Below are positions 2,289 through 61,769 of a stretch of DNA of 64,000 nucleotides, one piece after another. Every line of letters starts with the position of its first letter. Position 1 is the stretch's first letter. The notes under the pieces are model-generated. The model had not been told where the DNA came from. It did no database searches and saw only the letters and a list, made by a program, of their open reading frames with translations. Source of the DNA: a virus; the IMG/VR virus record IMGVR_UViG_3300032087_004763, positions 62,001 to 126,000 of that record; one strand, given 5' to 3'. Both the position numbers and the translations under genes were made by a program.

Positions 2289-5200
2289 TTATCCTCCAAA
2301 TACGATTGCCATGGCGATTGCTTTACCGGTAGTTACTCCGCTCTCTTGTCTCGCTTGGACATAAGCAGAGTCAACAAGCCCACTGACTTGTCCTGAGTCT
2401 AAACCTTTACCACCAGGAATATTGAATACTGTTAGAACGTCATCTGAATCCGCACCGGTCACAAGAGTTACTGATGTACCATTTGTTGCTGAATAATCAT
2501 CACTATCTACCAACAAGACACCGTTTAAGAATACGGCAACAGTGTTAGCGTTATAGCTTAATGAGTTTCCATTGTTATCATTTCCGCTAAATGATGTTGT
2601 ATTAGCTGAAGTAACGGTGTATGCAAATTGTGTTAATCCAGCGTCTCCTTGAATTATATTTCTAACGTCTGCAGAATCTAAACCGCCAGCAGTAACAGTA
2701 ATTGTTTTAGTTGCACCAGTACCTGATGCAGTTACTCCTGAACCCACAAAGTTAAGTGTAGTCGCAGCAGTAGAAAGCGAACTACCTTCTTCTTGTACCG
2801 TAAGCGACGATCCACCACCGCCACCACCAAATGTACCAGTAGGTAATCTATCAGAATCAATTGTACCTGTTACAATGTCACTAGCTGATAACACCGGGAT
2901 TCTAGCGGAATCAAATGTTCCTGATGTAATTTTAGAAGTAGGTAAATTTGGTATTGCCGATGTGCCAAGCGCTGCTACGAAAGCTGCATCAACATCAGCT
3001 GTGATGATACTACTAACTCGTACAGAATCTACAAAGTCTGTATCAATAACTGGTAGTTGAGATGTAAGTGCTAGTGTCCCGGTTGTAGTTGGTAATGTAA
3101 TATCTACATTTCCAGAATAATCACTATGTGCAGCAGACTTTAATCTTGTTCTATGTGCATTGGAAACTTCACAATAGAAGTCTGCGTACGCGACACTACC
3201 AGTACCTGTCCTGATTGTGATTCCGCCATCTTGTACAGTAACACCACCAGTTGATCCATTGCCATCAACTGTTAACACCGAGTCATCAATTAGACCTCTT
3301 AAAAACGTATTTGTGACTCGTGCATCAATTAATGTGTTAGTTTCTGCGGAATCAACAAAGTCTGTTCCAAGAGTCGGTATAGTAGGTGTATTACTAAAAT
3401 TAGTGTAATCAAGATAATATGATCCAGCCTGTCCACTTAATTTATTAGCGTTATCGGTTGGTGGTATTCTAGCTGAATCAATTGTGCCGGATGTAATGTC
3501 GCCAGCGGCTAACGCAGGAATGCGTGCTGAGTCCATAGTACCAGACGTAATGTCTGCTGCAGCTAGATCAGGTATTCTTGCCGAGTCAAATGTGCCTGAT
3601 GTAATTTTACTCGTAGGTAAATTAGGTATCGCTGACGTACCAAGAGCTGCAACAAAAGCAGCGTCTACGTCAGCAGTAATTATGGAACTAACACGAGCTG
3701 AGTCAACAAAGTTAGTGTCAATTGCTGGAATTGTTGGTGTATTTGTAAAGTTGTTGTAATTTAAATGATAGGCACTATTTTGACCACCCAGAGTATCAGC
3801 ATCAATTGTTAATGCGTTAATAAATGATGCATCAACATCTGCGGTGATAATCGAACTTACCCTAGCTGAATCAACAAAATCTGTGTCGACAGCAGGTATT
3901 GTTGGCGCACCAGTCAATGACGCGTAGGCAAAATCTTGTCTTAGTCTAACATGAGCTGAGTCTATTAACGCTATAGTTTCAATTGAGTCTAGCAATAATT
4001 GAAGAGCAACACTTGAGTCAATTGCATTTGCGGTAATTAACTTAATGGCCTCAGCTGAATCAATAAAGCTATTTCCAAGTGATGGTATTGTAGGTGTATT
4101 GCTGAAATTATTATAGTTTAAATGATAAGCGCTATTCTGGCCACCAAGAGTATCAGCATCAATCGTTAATGCGTTAATGAATGACGCATCAACGTCTGCG
4201 GTGATAATAGAACTAACACGAGCAGAGTCAACAAAGTCTGTGTCAACCACCGGTATTGATGCTGTGAATGTAATAGTATCTGTACCAGCATTTGTTGTAA
4301 TAGCAACACCACTACCGACAAGTGTTAATGTATCTGCTGTTGTGTCTGCTACTACATCACTTTGACCAGCTACCGAGATCGTTTTAAAAATCGGATCAGT
4401 CCCAGAGCCAGAAGCTTGTCGAGCTTGTACATAGGCTGAGTCAACTAATCCGATGACTGCTGCGGAATCAATACCACTACTTCCGCCTGACCCTCCACTC
4501 TGGCCAGGAGAGCCGCCTGACCCTCCACCAAATGTACCTGCAGGCAGTCTGGCTGAATCGATTGTGCCTGATGTAATGTCACTAGCTGATAACACCGGTA
4601 TTCTGGCTGAATCAAAGATTCCAGAAGTAATCTTCGATGTCGCAAGATTCGGTATAGCACTAGTTCCTAATGCAGCAACGAATGCAGCATCGACATCAGC
4701 TGTAATAATAGAACTAACTTGCGCAGAATCAATGTCACTTGATCCTCCACCACCGGTAGTAAATGTCCCTACAGGCAATCTGGCCGAATCAATAGTACCG
4801 GTAACGATATCAGAAGCACTCAGCCCTGGAATTCTAGCTGAATCGATTGTGCCTGATGCAATATCAGTAGCAGCTAATACTGGTATCCTTGCTGAATCAA
4901 GTGTTCCTGAATTAATTTGGCCTGCGCTAATTGATTTGTTAGTTAAAGTATCGGTAGAACTCGCAGTAATATAACTACCGAGATCACTGATCTGACTCTC
5001 AGTAATGCTCAAGCTTGCTTGATGTTGTGTTACATTACTAGCAGCAATTCTAGCATCAGCAAATGTGCCCGATGTGATTTTAGAAGTAGGTAAGTTTGGT
5101 ATCGCTGATGTACCAAGGGCTGCAATAAACGAAGCATCGACATCGGCCGTGATAATTGCACTTACACCAGCAGAATCTGGGAAATCAACGGTTGTGTACT

Positions 5201-8954: not shown

Positions 8955-10844
8955 TTACACTGTGCCTACGACTTCTTCGAAGTCCACACCAGTTCTCACA
9001 GCTACGAATGACAGAGTCACGTAGTTGATTGAACGTGCTGGCTTAATGAAGATGTCAGCTTTGAACTCATTACGATCGATGACAGCTGCAGTATTGTTTG
9101 TTTCGTCACACACGACTCTAAAGTCTGTGATACCCCGTCTTCCCTGTACTTCACGAAGTACTGGTTCGACAATGTTGACAAACTCAGCTCTGGTGAATTC
9201 ATCGTTGAACTCAAACAGAATCTGTTCTGCTGCTCTACCAATCGCTCTTTCTAAAATCAAGAATAAACGTCTTACGTTAATTCTATCAAACGCAGATACT
9301 CTTCCTAGGAATGTCTTATCTCCAAAGAGAAGAGCACCTTGTCCAGGAATGTTAGCAATTGGGTTAATACCCGCTTTATAAAGAGTATCTCTTTGAGCTT
9401 TTGTTGGGCTATAGTTAAGAGATGTAATGCCTAGAAGTTGACCACGTCTTGATCCAGCTGGTGAGAACCATGCTGCACGATTAATGTCCGTGGATGCCAT
9501 GATGCCTGCAACAGTTGAAGCCGCAGCAACATCGACATAACGATCATTGAACTTATCATAGACCTTAATGTAGTTATTATCTACAATCAGATATGATGAT
9601 CTGGTAAATGTCTCTGCCGTAGCAACAGTATTTGTTACCTTTGTAGCATCTGAAGTTTCATTGAGTAGGTCATCTCTACAAGGAGATGTGACAACTACAC
9701 AGTCCTTTCTAGCAGTCGCTGTTGCAACAAGGTCGTTGACGATTGTTGTTAAATTAGTTCTGCTAAACTGAGATGGCGCAACTAAGAAGTCAATCTCAAC
9801 TTGATCTTTATCTTCAAACAGATCGTGAGCAGTTGCAAACTCTGATGTACCAGCAGGACCGCCGTCAAGACCATCGGTCAATGATATTTCGTTCTTAAAT
9901 TGACCTGCAGTAGATCTACTACTATCAAGCCCGTAAGCCTTATTATCAACTGCAGCAGCTCCCGCGCCGATTGCAGTTTGATCTGAGTCAAAATTAAGAA
10001 GATAAATGTATTGTGATCTTTCGTTAATCACATCTTTTGCATAGATACTGACTCCTTCGTCGTTCTTTGCGTCAGACAGAATTGAAAGACCATCAAATCT
10101 TTCTAGAACGGTTCCCTTTGTTCCTGTTAGTAAACCATCCTCATCGACGACAATGTAATGAACTTCGTCGCCATTAGCTCCTTTATCAGCAGCAAACTTA
10201 GTAGTACCTGGTTTAGCATCAAATTCTGCTTTATACGTCCAAAGATTGTAATCAGAATCCGTACTAGTAGCCATAGCGTCAGTACTAGACAACAGTCCGG
10301 CATACGAAACCTTGATGCTGTTTCCTACGTTTCCAGGAACTCGAGCAACAAAAGAGTACTTGCCTGTTACGCTTGAAGAATCTACAGTTGCAAAGTCTTG
10401 ACCGTCCACAGCTGCAGCAAGTGTAGATTGCCTTGCATCAAAGTTAGCTTTGTTTAGAATCTTTGGATTAGCTAGGTTTAAGAAACCTTGATTGTTCGAA
10501 TCAAAGTTTTGTGCGCTATATCCACGCGATGTTAAAGCATGCGCACTAGCAATACCATTGTTCTCGGTTCGAACAACTACTAAGCTATTTGAATATCTTA
10601 AAAATTGTGTAGCCGAAAGAAAATCTCTCGACATCCACGATTGTGTTAAATCGCTATCTACAGGTGCACCAAATGTTTCGACTAGTTCGGTTTCATTCGC
10701 GATGTTTACGCGCTCACCGACCGGTCCCCATTTAAACTGACCCGCAATAGCTCCCGTTGATGACTGGACGTTTGGAACGCCACCAGTCAGATCGATCTCC
10801 CTTACGACAACCGCAGGAGATTCGGAAGGTGAAAAGAGTGCCAT
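8955..10844 (-). CDS. 18: Contractile tail sheath protein gp18
   Basis: 629 residues (T4 gp18 has 659). It forms the contractile sheath around the tube. The N-terminus (FSPSESPAVVVREIDLTGGVP, here split across the start) and the C-terminal region (ILFEFNDEFTRAEFVNIVEPVLREV... then DIFIKPARSINYVTLSFVAVRTG) are typical sheath motifs. Its start at 10844 has GAGGA upstream and is preceded by a leader of about 63 nt and two late promoter motifs, fitting very high late expression. Confidence 0.95.
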   Translation of the reverse strand: MALFSPSESPAVVVREIDLTGGVPNVQSSTGAIAGQFKWGPVGERVNIANETELVETFGAPVDSDLTQSWMSRDFLSATQFLRYSNSLVVVRTENNGIASAHALTSRGYSAQNFDSNNQGFLNLANPKILNKANFDARQSTLAAAVDGQDFATVDSSSVTGKYSFVARVPGNVGNSIKVSYAGLLSSTDAMATSTDSDYNLWTYKAEFDAKPGTTKFAADKGANGDEVHYIVVDEDGLLTGTKGTVLERFDGLSILSDAKNDEGVSIYAKDVINERSQYIYLLNFDSDQTAIGAGAAAVDNKAYGLDSSRSTAGQFKNEISLTDGLDGGPAGTSEFATAHDLFEDKDQVEIDFLVAPSQFSRTNLTTIVNDLVATATARKDCVVVTSPCRDDLLNETSDATKVTNTVATAETFTRSSYLIVDNNYIKVYDKFNDRYVDVAAASTVAGIMASTDINRAAWFSPAGSRRGQLLGITSLNYSPTKAQRDTLYKAGINPIANIPGQGALLFGDKTFLGRVSAFDRINVRRLFLILERAIGRAAEQILFEFNDEFTRAEFVNIVEPVLREVQGRRGITDFRVVCDETNNTAAVIDRNEFKADIFIKPARSINYVTLSFVAVRTGVDFEEVVGTV

Positions 10845-10906
10845 TTTTGTTTCCTCTATTAATGATATGAATTCATAATACGGTTGTTAGTTTTTCAATT
10901 CACTAT

Positions 10907-10922
10907 TATTTATATATTTATA
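10907..10922 (-). promoter_or_regulatory. Two tandem late promoter motifs upstream of gp18
   Basis: TATAAATA occurs twice back to back on the minus strand, at 10907-10914 and 10915-10922. The second overlaps the last codons and stop of gp17. They precede the sheath gene by about 63 nt. Duplicate cores may raise initiation for the most abundant tail protein. Confidence 0.7.
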
Positions 10923-12528
10923 GATTTGGGTCGTATTCCACAGCCCACGGACCATCTTCATTTTCTATTTTTCGAATGGCATCAGATCCGTCATCTATAA
11001 ATCCAAAAGGAACCATATCATCTTGTATCTCTTTCATTTTCTTTTCAAACAGCATTTGTTTAAGATCAATATCAGTCATATCACCGAAATATTGCGTAGA
11101 AGCAAAATAGCCAAACATAACTAGGTTCATCATCAGGTCATCATGATTACCTACACTTGCCTGATAGCTAGTGCCTTTTGCTTCGAACGTAGATATCTCG
11201 AGTATTGTGTGCTCGTCCACAACCTTGAGTTTATTATTTTCTAGGATATCTTTAATAGCTGAGCAGCCGAGCCTCTTGACTTTTCGGTTCATTTCAATAC
11301 CGAGACCAGATGCTTTGACTGATGAAGACGCGTGTAGATTTTCATATTCTAGATCGTGGTATAAGCCATTACACACGACGGATCCCTGATCGTTTGACTC
11401 AACGACGATGTAAGCATCATTGTAGACTTTCGCGTACTTATATATAATGTTAGGGAAGAGTATAGGCGAGATAGTGTTATTGCGATACACGGCGACCTGC
11501 TCAAAAGGCCGGACTGAAATATCGATCAAGTTAAAAGTAGAATAGTCTTGACCTCTTCCTTTTGATACATCTACTGTCATAACATATTCGTGTTGTTTAG
11601 TCGTCTCTTTATAGACGAGAAGGTCTCCCGCTTCAAGGGTTCGAATAGGGTTATGCGCTCGGAGGCTCATCAGTGTTTCGGCATTGATGAGTGTATCACC
11701 TGTACCGAAGAAGGTATTACCAAATTCTTGGTCGAATTGTAACTGAGAAGTGTTTGCTATTGTCTGCGCTTTCCATACCTCATCTCGACCTGGAACATCC
11801 CACCAGTCCACACGGAACGGGTTAAATTCGTTGACTCCTTGGACTGCGCCTTCCCATATCTTATGAAAAACATTACCGATACCATTAGCGGTTGACGTCA
11901 CAATGATCTTTGTTTCTTTACCTGACGATACAACCGGATAGGTTGATGTATAAAACTCTGCTGCACGTTCGACGAATGCAAACTCATCGAGATACAAGAG
12001 GTTGACTGACATACCACGAATAGAAGAACCAGATGTCGCTGCAGCAACAATCCGTGAGTTATTACTAAACTCAATCGATCCTTTGTTGAGTGCCTTACAC
12101 CCAGGCTGTAGAAAGAACGGTATATTCTCGAGCATCAACGTGATACGGCCAAGCATCTCACGTGCTGTCGCACCCTTGTTTGCCATGACCGCAACTGTTT
12201 TCTCTGAGTGAAATAGCGCATACCACAGAAGATAAGCACAGGCAGATATTGATTTACCGGACTGACGGCATGCAAGAACAATATTGAATCGATTGTTCTG
12301 GAAGTGGTTGAACATGTCCCTTTGATAAGGATATAGATTGAATGTCACTAAACCTTGATCGAGAGCGATTACTTTAACATACTTTTCACAAAAGTACACA
12401 GGGTCGTTCATACATTTCGCGTACTCCTGTATAAGCTCAGGCTCCCACTTTTGCTGAACTCCATCACGTTTTACGTTTGGGTTGCCGAGATAACTACTCG
12501 TCTGTTGGGGTAACATCGATCTCTTCAC
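10918..12528 (-). CDS. 17: Large terminase subunit gp17
   Basis: 536 residues (T4 gp17 has 610). It is the ATP-driven DNA packaging motor and headful nuclease. The ATPase Walker A motif CRQSGKS is at residues 87-93, Walker B LLYLDEF at about 177-183, and the coupling motif TSTANG at about 211-216. The nuclease domain begins near VMTVDVSKGRGQD (first catalytic Asp about 320). It starts inside the end of gp16 (35-nt overlap), an arrangement also seen in T4. Confidence 0.97.
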   Translation of the reverse strand: MKRSMLPQQTSSYLGNPNVKRDGVQQKWEPELIQEYAKCMNDPVYFCEKYVKVIALDQGLVTFNLYPYQRDMFNHFQNNRFNIVLACRQSGKSISACAYLLWYALFHSEKTVAVMANKGATAREMLGRITLMLENIPFFLQPGCKALNKGSIEFSNNSRIVAAATSGSSIRGMSVNLLYLDEFAFVERAAEFYTSTYPVVSSGKETKIIVTSTANGIGNVFHKIWEGAVQGVNEFNPFRVDWWDVPGRDEVWKAQTIANTSQLQFDQEFGNTFFGTGDTLINAETLMSLRAHNPIRTLEAGDLLVYKETTKQHEYVMTVDVSKGRGQDYSTFNLIDISVRPFEQVAVYRNNTISPILFPNIIYKYAKVYNDAYIVVESNDQGSVVCNGLYHDLEYENLHASSSVKASGLGIEMNRKVKRLGCSAIKDILENNKLKVVDEHTILEISTFEAKGTSYQASVGNHDDLMMNLVMFGYFASTQYFGDMTDIDLKQMLFEKKMKEIQDDMVPFGFIDDGSDAIRKIENEDGPWAVEYDPNL

Positions 12529-61138: not shown

Positions 61139-61402
61139 CTAGTTCTTGTAAATATTGTATAGATGAGTTTCAAATTGTTCGACCTTCTCAATACGATTTG
61201 GCCAATAAATGTATTCCTTCTCTGGATTTTTCTTTAGATTATTTAAGAGAGGAGCAACTGCATTGTATAGCTTATCGATCTTTGCTTGCATCTCTTCTGC
61301 AGTTGATGATGCAGTTTGTGCAGTCGCAGTTGCCTTTTGAACGGCTTCTAGTTCGGTCTCGTCAACAGCTGTAAAACCAAAATCAAAAAAATCTTCTGAC
61401 AT
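61139..61402 (-). CDS. Small conserved protein, late expressed
   Basis: 87 residues. MSEDFFDFGFTAVDETELEA begins an acidic N-terminus; the middle is a coiled coil (SSTAEEMQAKIDKLYNAVAP); the end is LNNLKKNPEKEYIYWPNRIE and then KVEQFETHLYNI. Proteins of this design are common in marine T4-like phages. The ATG has AAAGGAG at seven bases and a late promoter at 61422-61429. A role in the virion or in head assembly is possible. Confidence 0.65.
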   Translation of the reverse strand: MSEDFFDFGFTAVDETELEAVQKATATAQTASSTAEEMQAKIDKLYNAVAPLLNNLKKNPEKEYIYWPNRIEKVEQFETHLYNIYKN

Positions 61403-61421: not shown

Positions 61422-61429
61422 TATTTATC
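61422..61429 (-). promoter_or_regulatory. Late promoter (GATAAATA) of the gene at 61139-61402
   Basis: GATAAATA on the minus strand, 20 nt before the ATG. It abuts the T run of the structured RNA's terminator. Confidence 0.6.
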
Positions 61430-61469
61430 TAAAAAATAAAAGCGGAACGGGGAGACTAGGGTAACTCCC
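61429..61469 (-). terminator. Likely terminator at the end of the tRNA/structured RNA unit
   Basis: Leftward RNA ends with a stem GGGAG/CTCCC (61465-61469 and 61450-61454), then CGTTCCGC and a T run TTTTATTTTTT. The CGTTCC next to the T run can pair with GGAACG at 61592-61597, closing the whole structured region. Termination is likely but the stem is short. Confidence 0.55.
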
Positions 61470-61622
61470 AAGGGGGTACTATCTGATGTACCTTTCATCT
61501 TAGACCCCCAACAACCGTGCAGCCCGCTAAGGCATTGCCGCTAAGCACTTCCAGTCTACCTTACCCCCCATCAGAGAGAGGTATTCGGTCACGTTCCTAT
61601 CGGCGCTGCAGGCACCGAACTC
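61441..61622 (-). ncRNA. Structured non-coding RNA candidate downstream of tRNA-Arg
   Basis: About 180 nt with no reading frame and about 56% G+C against roughly 40% around it. Read leftward it can form: hairpin TCGGTGC/GCGCCGA (61600-61618); ACCTCTC/GGGGGGT (61563-61582); GTGC/GCAC with inner stems (61517-61548); GGGGGT/ACCCCC with inner GATG/CATC (61472-61509); and a closing helix GGAACG/CGTTCC (61597-61592 with 61449-61444). TTCGGT (61584-61589) could alternatively pair with ACCGAA (61614-61619). The unit follows tRNA-Arg directly. I could not match it to a named family; T4 has small stable RNAs near its tRNAs. Confidence 0.6.
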
Positions 61623-61698
61623 TGGCCTCGTCGGCAGGATTCGAACCTGCGACCCTCTGCTTAGAAGGCAGATGTTCTATCCACTGAACTACGACGAG
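61623..61698 (-). tRNA. tRNA-Arg (anticodon TCT) with encoded CCA
   Basis: Complete cloverleaf on the minus strand: acceptor CTCGTCG/CGACGAG, D arm GTTC...GAAC, anticodon stem TCTGC/GCAGA with loop CTTCTAA (anticodon TCT), T arm GCAGG/CCTGC with loop TTCGAAT, discriminator G and genomic CCA (61623-61625). It reads AGA, a codon common in AT-rich phage genes, and this tRNA is frequent in marine T4-like phages. It lies three bases after a long inverted repeat. Confidence 0.95.
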
Positions 61699-61701
61699 TA
61701 A

Positions 61702-61769
61702 AACTTATAAGGATGGCTACTCCTACAGAGAGAGGAGAGAGATGGCAGAAGTAGCCATTCTTATAAGTT
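61702..61769 (-). repeat. Long inverted repeat between 61769-61957 gene and tRNA-Arg
   Basis: A 20-bp inverted repeat (61702-61721 with 61750-61769; one G/A difference that becomes G-U in RNA) with a 28-nt purine-rich loop. The right arm begins at the stop codon of the gene at 61769. In leftward RNA it is followed by TTTTA and, two bases on, the tRNA 5' end. It could be a terminator or an RNase III and tRNA processing signal. Confidence 0.75.

Follow-up and report, generated by a model that had tools for sequence, protein, structure and literature searches.

A structured RNA abutting tRNA-Arg

The window, the whole stretch of 64,000 nucleotides analysed here, corresponds to bases 62001-126000 of a 142,381-base IMG/VR virus record and encodes a T4-type single-strand DNA binding protein (PHROG 224) with a DNA-level relation to cyanophage homologues. 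On its minus strand, the 5' end of a structured RNA (61622) is the first base past the encoded CCA of a tRNA-Arg(TCT) gene, and an open reading frame follows outside the RNA. The features of the locus are listed below in the order of transcription (alignment A1 and covariance model R1 are described in the following sections):

61623..61698, minus strand: tRNA-Arg, anticodon TCT, encoded CCA, abutting the RNA (tRNA call)
61440..61622, minus strand: divergent manA-type structured RNA (RF01745 match over the full length, R1 model, covariation)
61600..61618, minus strand: P1 hairpin, arms 61613-61618 and 61600-61605 (two-sided change in 6 of 6 pairs in A1)
61444..61597, minus strand: P2, closing helix GGAAC/GUUCC, arms 61593-61597 and 61444-61448 (100% of cells paired; two-sided change in 4 of 5 pairs)
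61582..61592, minus strand: conserved GUGACCGAAUA motif (invariant in A1; common to canonical manA)
61564..61581, minus strand: P3 hairpin (A1 and covariation)
61558-61565, minus strand: conserved GGUAAGGU, entered by the 3' edge of P3 (A1 and covariation)
61483..61574, minus strand: pseudoknot of the P3 loop CUGAUG (61569-61574) with CAUCAG (61483-61488) (100% of cells paired; two-sided change in 3 of 6 pairs; inverted repeat)
61513..61556, minus strand: P4 enclosing twin P5 hairpins with UUAGC loops (P4 95% and P5b 97% of cells paired; two-sided changes)
61472..61509, minus strand: P6, arms 61504-61509 and 61472-61477 (100% of cells paired; two-sided change in 5 of 6 pairs)
61450..61469, minus strand: P8 hairpin ahead of the 3' closing arm (100% of cells paired; two-sided change in 3 of 5 pairs)
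61429..61441, minus strand: U-rich 3' tail (sequence; closing arm followed by a U-rich end in most relatives)
61422..61429, minus strand: T4-type late-promoter-like GATAAATA, 26 nt before the ATG of the next ORF (sequence)
61139..61402, minus strand: next ORF, 87 aa, outside the RNA (reading frame list)

The G+C content of positions 61440-61620 is 55.8%, against 39.6% for the whole window, where only 0.7% of the 180-nt stretches are equally G+C-rich; no same-strand frame of at least 40 aa lies within the RNA interval. The initial annotation, made from the sequence of the window, had placed a GC-rich, frameless, non-coding RNA co-linear with tRNA-Arg at the right coordinates, and the hairpins, closing helix and T-rich end it described are all present. 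Two of its proposals fared worse: no sigma-70-like promoter scored between 61380 and 62520, leaving its TGTACT promoter weak at best; and the TTCGGT/ACCGAA pairing, put forward as a switch, exists in the window but is disrupted in relatives and lacks compensatory changes. The U-rich 3' tail is likely a processing or end site of the RNA.

Two further elements were observed around the locus. ATAAATA, as in T4-like late promoters, occurs 15 times on the minus strand of the window and twice on the plus strand, and 9 of these 17 sites precede an ATG by no more than 60 nt. Just upstream of tRNA-Arg there is a 23-bp inverted repeat (61702-61769; 91% complementary, 22-nt loop), which with its flanks folds at -42.6 kcal/mol; this folded element is also found in the near copy L027 and is absent from the 110 bases before the tRNA-Arg of L079.

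Covariation and the pseudoknot

The minimum folding energy of the RNA is -69.6 kcal/mol (z -1.62), a value equalled or bettered by 15 of 200 shuffles. Folding energy alone, which only modestly beats the shuffles, is weak evidence for a structured RNA. Decisive was the covariation in A1, a 16-sequence alignment of homologues in which P1, the closing helix P2, P3, the pseudoknot, P4, P5b, P6 and P8 were scored: 97.1% of the cells were paired (84.6 shuffled), 28 of 41 pairs showed two-sided change (10.7 shuffled) and the covariation score was 0.382 (0.153 shuffled). None of 500 shuffles reached any of the five measures used, and shifting the partners by one column brought pairing down to 49-55%. 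The initial annotation had proposed covariance analysis of homologous loci after tRNAs as a check, and its RNA passed strongly. The structure was partly read from A1 itself, a bias in its favour, but this does not account for so high a level of two-sided change in all the helices; P1 is off by one base in a few rows of A1, which lowers, and does not raise, its score. Because of this covariation, and not because of its foldability, 61622-61440 on the minus strand is accepted as a real, evolutionarily constrained folded RNA.

The loop of P3 pairs with a strand 80 nt downstream, and in relatives the two strands vary together (CCGAAG/CUUCGG, CACAUG/CAUGUG, CUCAUG/CAUGAG, CAGAUG/CAUCUG), the pairing being always complete. 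A local hairpin GATG/CATC, which would use the same 3' strand, was also considered and is not conserved, 48% of its cells being paired, the level of shuffles. For canonical manA RNAs, an automatic comparison of own and swapped pairings was not significant; covarying 5-mers seen by eye at the equivalent sites of five of them (L009, L015, L026, L016, L035) are suggestive only. The original description draws the manA pseudoknot with a question mark and as having weaker support (Weinberg et al. 2010, PMC2864571), and the Rfam 14 account mentions 48 significant pairs in the corrected manA alignment. We make no claim of newness for the pseudoknot, which is well supported for the branch to which the window belongs.

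A divergent branch of the manA family

At gathering thresholds, Rfam returned tRNA only and no other family in the RNA region. Below threshold, manA (RF01745) matched from end to end (model 1-192 of 192, 41.2 bits, E 1.7e-9 for 341 bases searched), under the curated gathering cut-off of 55.2 bits; the initial annotation had recognised no family match. Three sisters (L036, L087, L093) scored 45.7-46.8 bits, likewise sub-threshold, so that the curated cut-off appears to miss the branch systematically. R1, a covariance model of 13 sisters that excluded the window and its near copy L027, scored the window RNA at 185.7 bits and, although branch-only, retrieved canonical manA RNAs over their full length at 19-51 bits, a homology bridge in both directions. 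On the grounds of the full-length RF01745 match and of this reverse retrieval, we assign the window RNA to a divergent branch of manA, lying beneath Rfam's own threshold.

Viral contigs were searched with the pattern GTGACYGAATA...GGTAAGGT and then with another drawn from the remaining half of the RNA, which gave 29 distinct loci of the branch type, the window included. Each of 20 further records, among them a 141-kb record and the 232,878-base S-SSM7 genome, contained a single copy. Scanning a genome collection gave nine matches, one of them true (L062, labelled WOR-3) and the others not manA-like by eye. BLAST of the RNA against phages found no homologue, BLAST of two manA RNAs against plasmids found no match, and the tRNA-Arg regions of Pelagibacter phage Mosig, Melnitz-1, S-WAM2, Carin-5 and Bellamy are without such an RNA. 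In L024 (181-400), P1 is replaced by a sequence resembling the start of tRNA-Pro (GTAGGTCAGTCTGGTAGACC), which suggests that the RNA has recombined with a tRNA gene.

Position beside tRNA genes

The RNA abuts a tRNA exactly, or nearly so, in many phages. Among the 28 distinct branch loci with upstream sequence, the RNA starts within 5 nt of the 3' end of a same-strand tRNA in 19, where 0.02 would be expected from tRNA density, and such a 3' end lies within 80 nt upstream in 24. Downstream, a tRNA is found within 5 nt in five of the 28 and within 50 nt in nine, and in four loci (L036, L050, L087, L093) the RNA sits between two tRNAs with a few bases at most to spare on each side. The loci were found by RNA-based patterns and not by tRNAs, so the association was not built into the search. 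Related phages were counted separately, so the 28 loci do not represent as many independent events; that different tRNAs are involved and that canonical manA shows the same arrangement nevertheless indicates several separate events. The upstream tRNA may be Cys, Asn, Arg, Thr or Pro, so the association is not specific to one tRNA. In three loci (L006, L043, L030) a hairpin and a T run come after the RNA.

Other elements were seen in these arrays. In five loci (L002, L034, L066, L071, L090) an element GGAATGACTGCGCC...GACAGTCCC, with a hairpin GACTG/CAGTC, comes directly after the RNA; L034 has a second copy in its tRNA array, after tRNA-Asn, and, on the same contig as this array and the manA-type RNA, a permuted tmRNA called by ARAGORN (2865-3272).

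Canonical members show the same placement in part. In the cultured phage S-CREM1, manA is flanked by tRNA-Leu and tRNA-Asn, leaving one spare base at most; it lies directly after tRNA-Gly in L014 and directly before tRNA-Gly in S-SSM7. In 12 of 29 non-branch manA loci, a sigma-70-like promoter (TTGAC...TATAAT) ends at the first bases of the RNA, and a hairpin and a T run come after several non-branch RNAs. The genes flanking manA differ among cultured cyanophages (gp23 upstream; talC or carbamoyltransferase downstream, among others). In a subgroup (L009, L015, L026) the RNA lies 11-13 nt ahead of a start codon.

Two observations concern the surroundings of canonical manA. In nine loci (L003, L004, L005, L007, L040, L047, L097, L099, L101) the -35 box (TTGACA/TTGACG) is in the loop of the terminator-like hairpin of the preceding gene, a compact terminator-promoter overlap upstream of manA. 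In S-CREM1 (9000-12000, L132) tRNA genes surround the wcaG, manA and abiF RNAs; wcaG RNA, likewise labelled cis-regulatory, might merit the same re-examination.

Proposed role of the RNA

The interval is probably a free-standing phage RNA of about 180 nt, belonging to the divergent manA branch, cut from the tRNA-Arg transcript and acting in trans. We infer from the arrangement of the locus that the RNA would be co-transcribed with tRNA-Arg. The cut that makes the 3' (CCA) end of the tRNA would most likely also set the 5' end of the RNA, and its 3' end would come from cleavage in the U-rich tail or, where another tRNA comes next, from the 5' processing of that tRNA. The RNA, folded into a compact pseudoknotted structure, would then act in trans, most likely through binding to a protein or another partner during infection; its position suggests this mode of action.

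The best surviving alternative, which we consider unlikely, is cis regulation of the downstream 87-aa ORF by a riboswitch or leader. It agrees with the Rfam type of manA (Cis-reg) and with the original description, which regards manA as a probable riboswitch situated in potential 5' UTRs (PMC2864571). In the window and L027 the ORF begins about 33 nt past the RNA; in L079 it is also close. A late-promoter-like element (GATAAATA/TATAAATA), however, stands between the RNA and the ORF in all three loci, and the 3' arm of P8, which would be able to mask the ribosome site, differs over them (CTCCC, CCACC, CCCCC) while the site is unchanged. A leader controlling a downstream gene is expected to keep a downstream gene, whereas the next gene in relatives of the window is a tRNA (9 of 28) or an unrelated ORF. 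The stand-alone RNA is thus favoured because the constant neighbour is upstream, and can be any tRNA, and because the next gene is often another tRNA; the ORF of the window having its own late-promoter-like element, and the varying helix arm by the ribosome site, favour it too. Cis regulation would fit the position of the RNA in L009, L015 and L026, which keeps this function alive for some members.

Rather less probable is an element that processes, stabilises or ends the tRNA transcript and has no role beyond the maturation or protection of tRNA-Arg. Such an element would be consistent with the direct abutment of tRNA 3' ends, the compact fold and the U-rich end; against it, canonical cyanophage members have their own promoters with no tRNA near, invariant sequence motifs lie far from the junction, and most tRNAs of the same arrays are without it. 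A chance GC-rich, foldable intergenic sequence, for which only the energy just 1.6 sd below shuffles would speak, is refuted by compensatory changes over the 16 sequences that none of the 500 shuffles matched on any measure.

For the family as a whole, we give even odds to manA RNAs being, instead of riboswitches, a widespread class of stand-alone phage RNAs that are either transcribed from a sigma-70 promoter of their own or excised from tRNA precursors, and that affect the infected cell in trans. Since 2010 manA has counted as a riboswitch candidate, and the literature consulted reports no ligand for it; if the RNAs stand alone, looking for a ligand and for a gene that it regulates would be aimed at the wrong target.

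Comparison with known systems

The window RNA shares with manA (RF01745) the full-length alignment, the closing helix, the order of hairpins and the occurrence in T4-like marine phages, and its GUGACYGAAUA and GGUAAGGU motifs flank P3 inside the closing helix as they do in that family. It differs in that the branch has a P5 region of its own, with two small hairpins with UAGC loops, and a clearly covarying pseudoknot. A location in the 5' UTR of metabolic genes, the basis of the cis-regulatory label, is not what is found at most branch loci, which are in tRNA arrays; a cis-regulatory role was therefore not adopted. The adjacency of manA and tRNAs is not wholly new: the transcriptome study of the Bifidobacterium megaplasmid pMP7017 reports a 178-bp manA motif in a tRNA region and remarks that manA adjoins tRNAs in some cases (PMC10832533). 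That copy is on a plasmid and not in a phage, and its authors keep the riboswitch reading (PMC10832533). Newly added here are the extent and exactness of the tRNA association, in a branch missed by the Rfam cut-off, and the argument against cis regulation.

Pairing of the conserved GGUAAGGU with 16S rRNA, one of eight tests, was not significant (8 bp, 4% of shuffles as good). The GOLLD and ROOL models of Rfam gave no match in the window RNA region; these RNAs are far larger and, like the window RNA, are phage RNAs often encoded near tRNA islands (PMC12286853). A relation to T4 RNA C and RNA D (species 1 and 2 stable RNAs) was rejected, the best score with R1 being 5 bits with filters off, and the manA model gave no match in T4. 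The arrangement in T4 (NC_000866) is very similar to that of the window, with rnaD and rnaC directly following tRNA-Arg on the same strand, a likeness of position that the initial annotation had rightly drawn. If it stands alone, manA would join T4 RNA C and RNA D, GOLLD and ROOL as an RNA riding with phage tRNAs.
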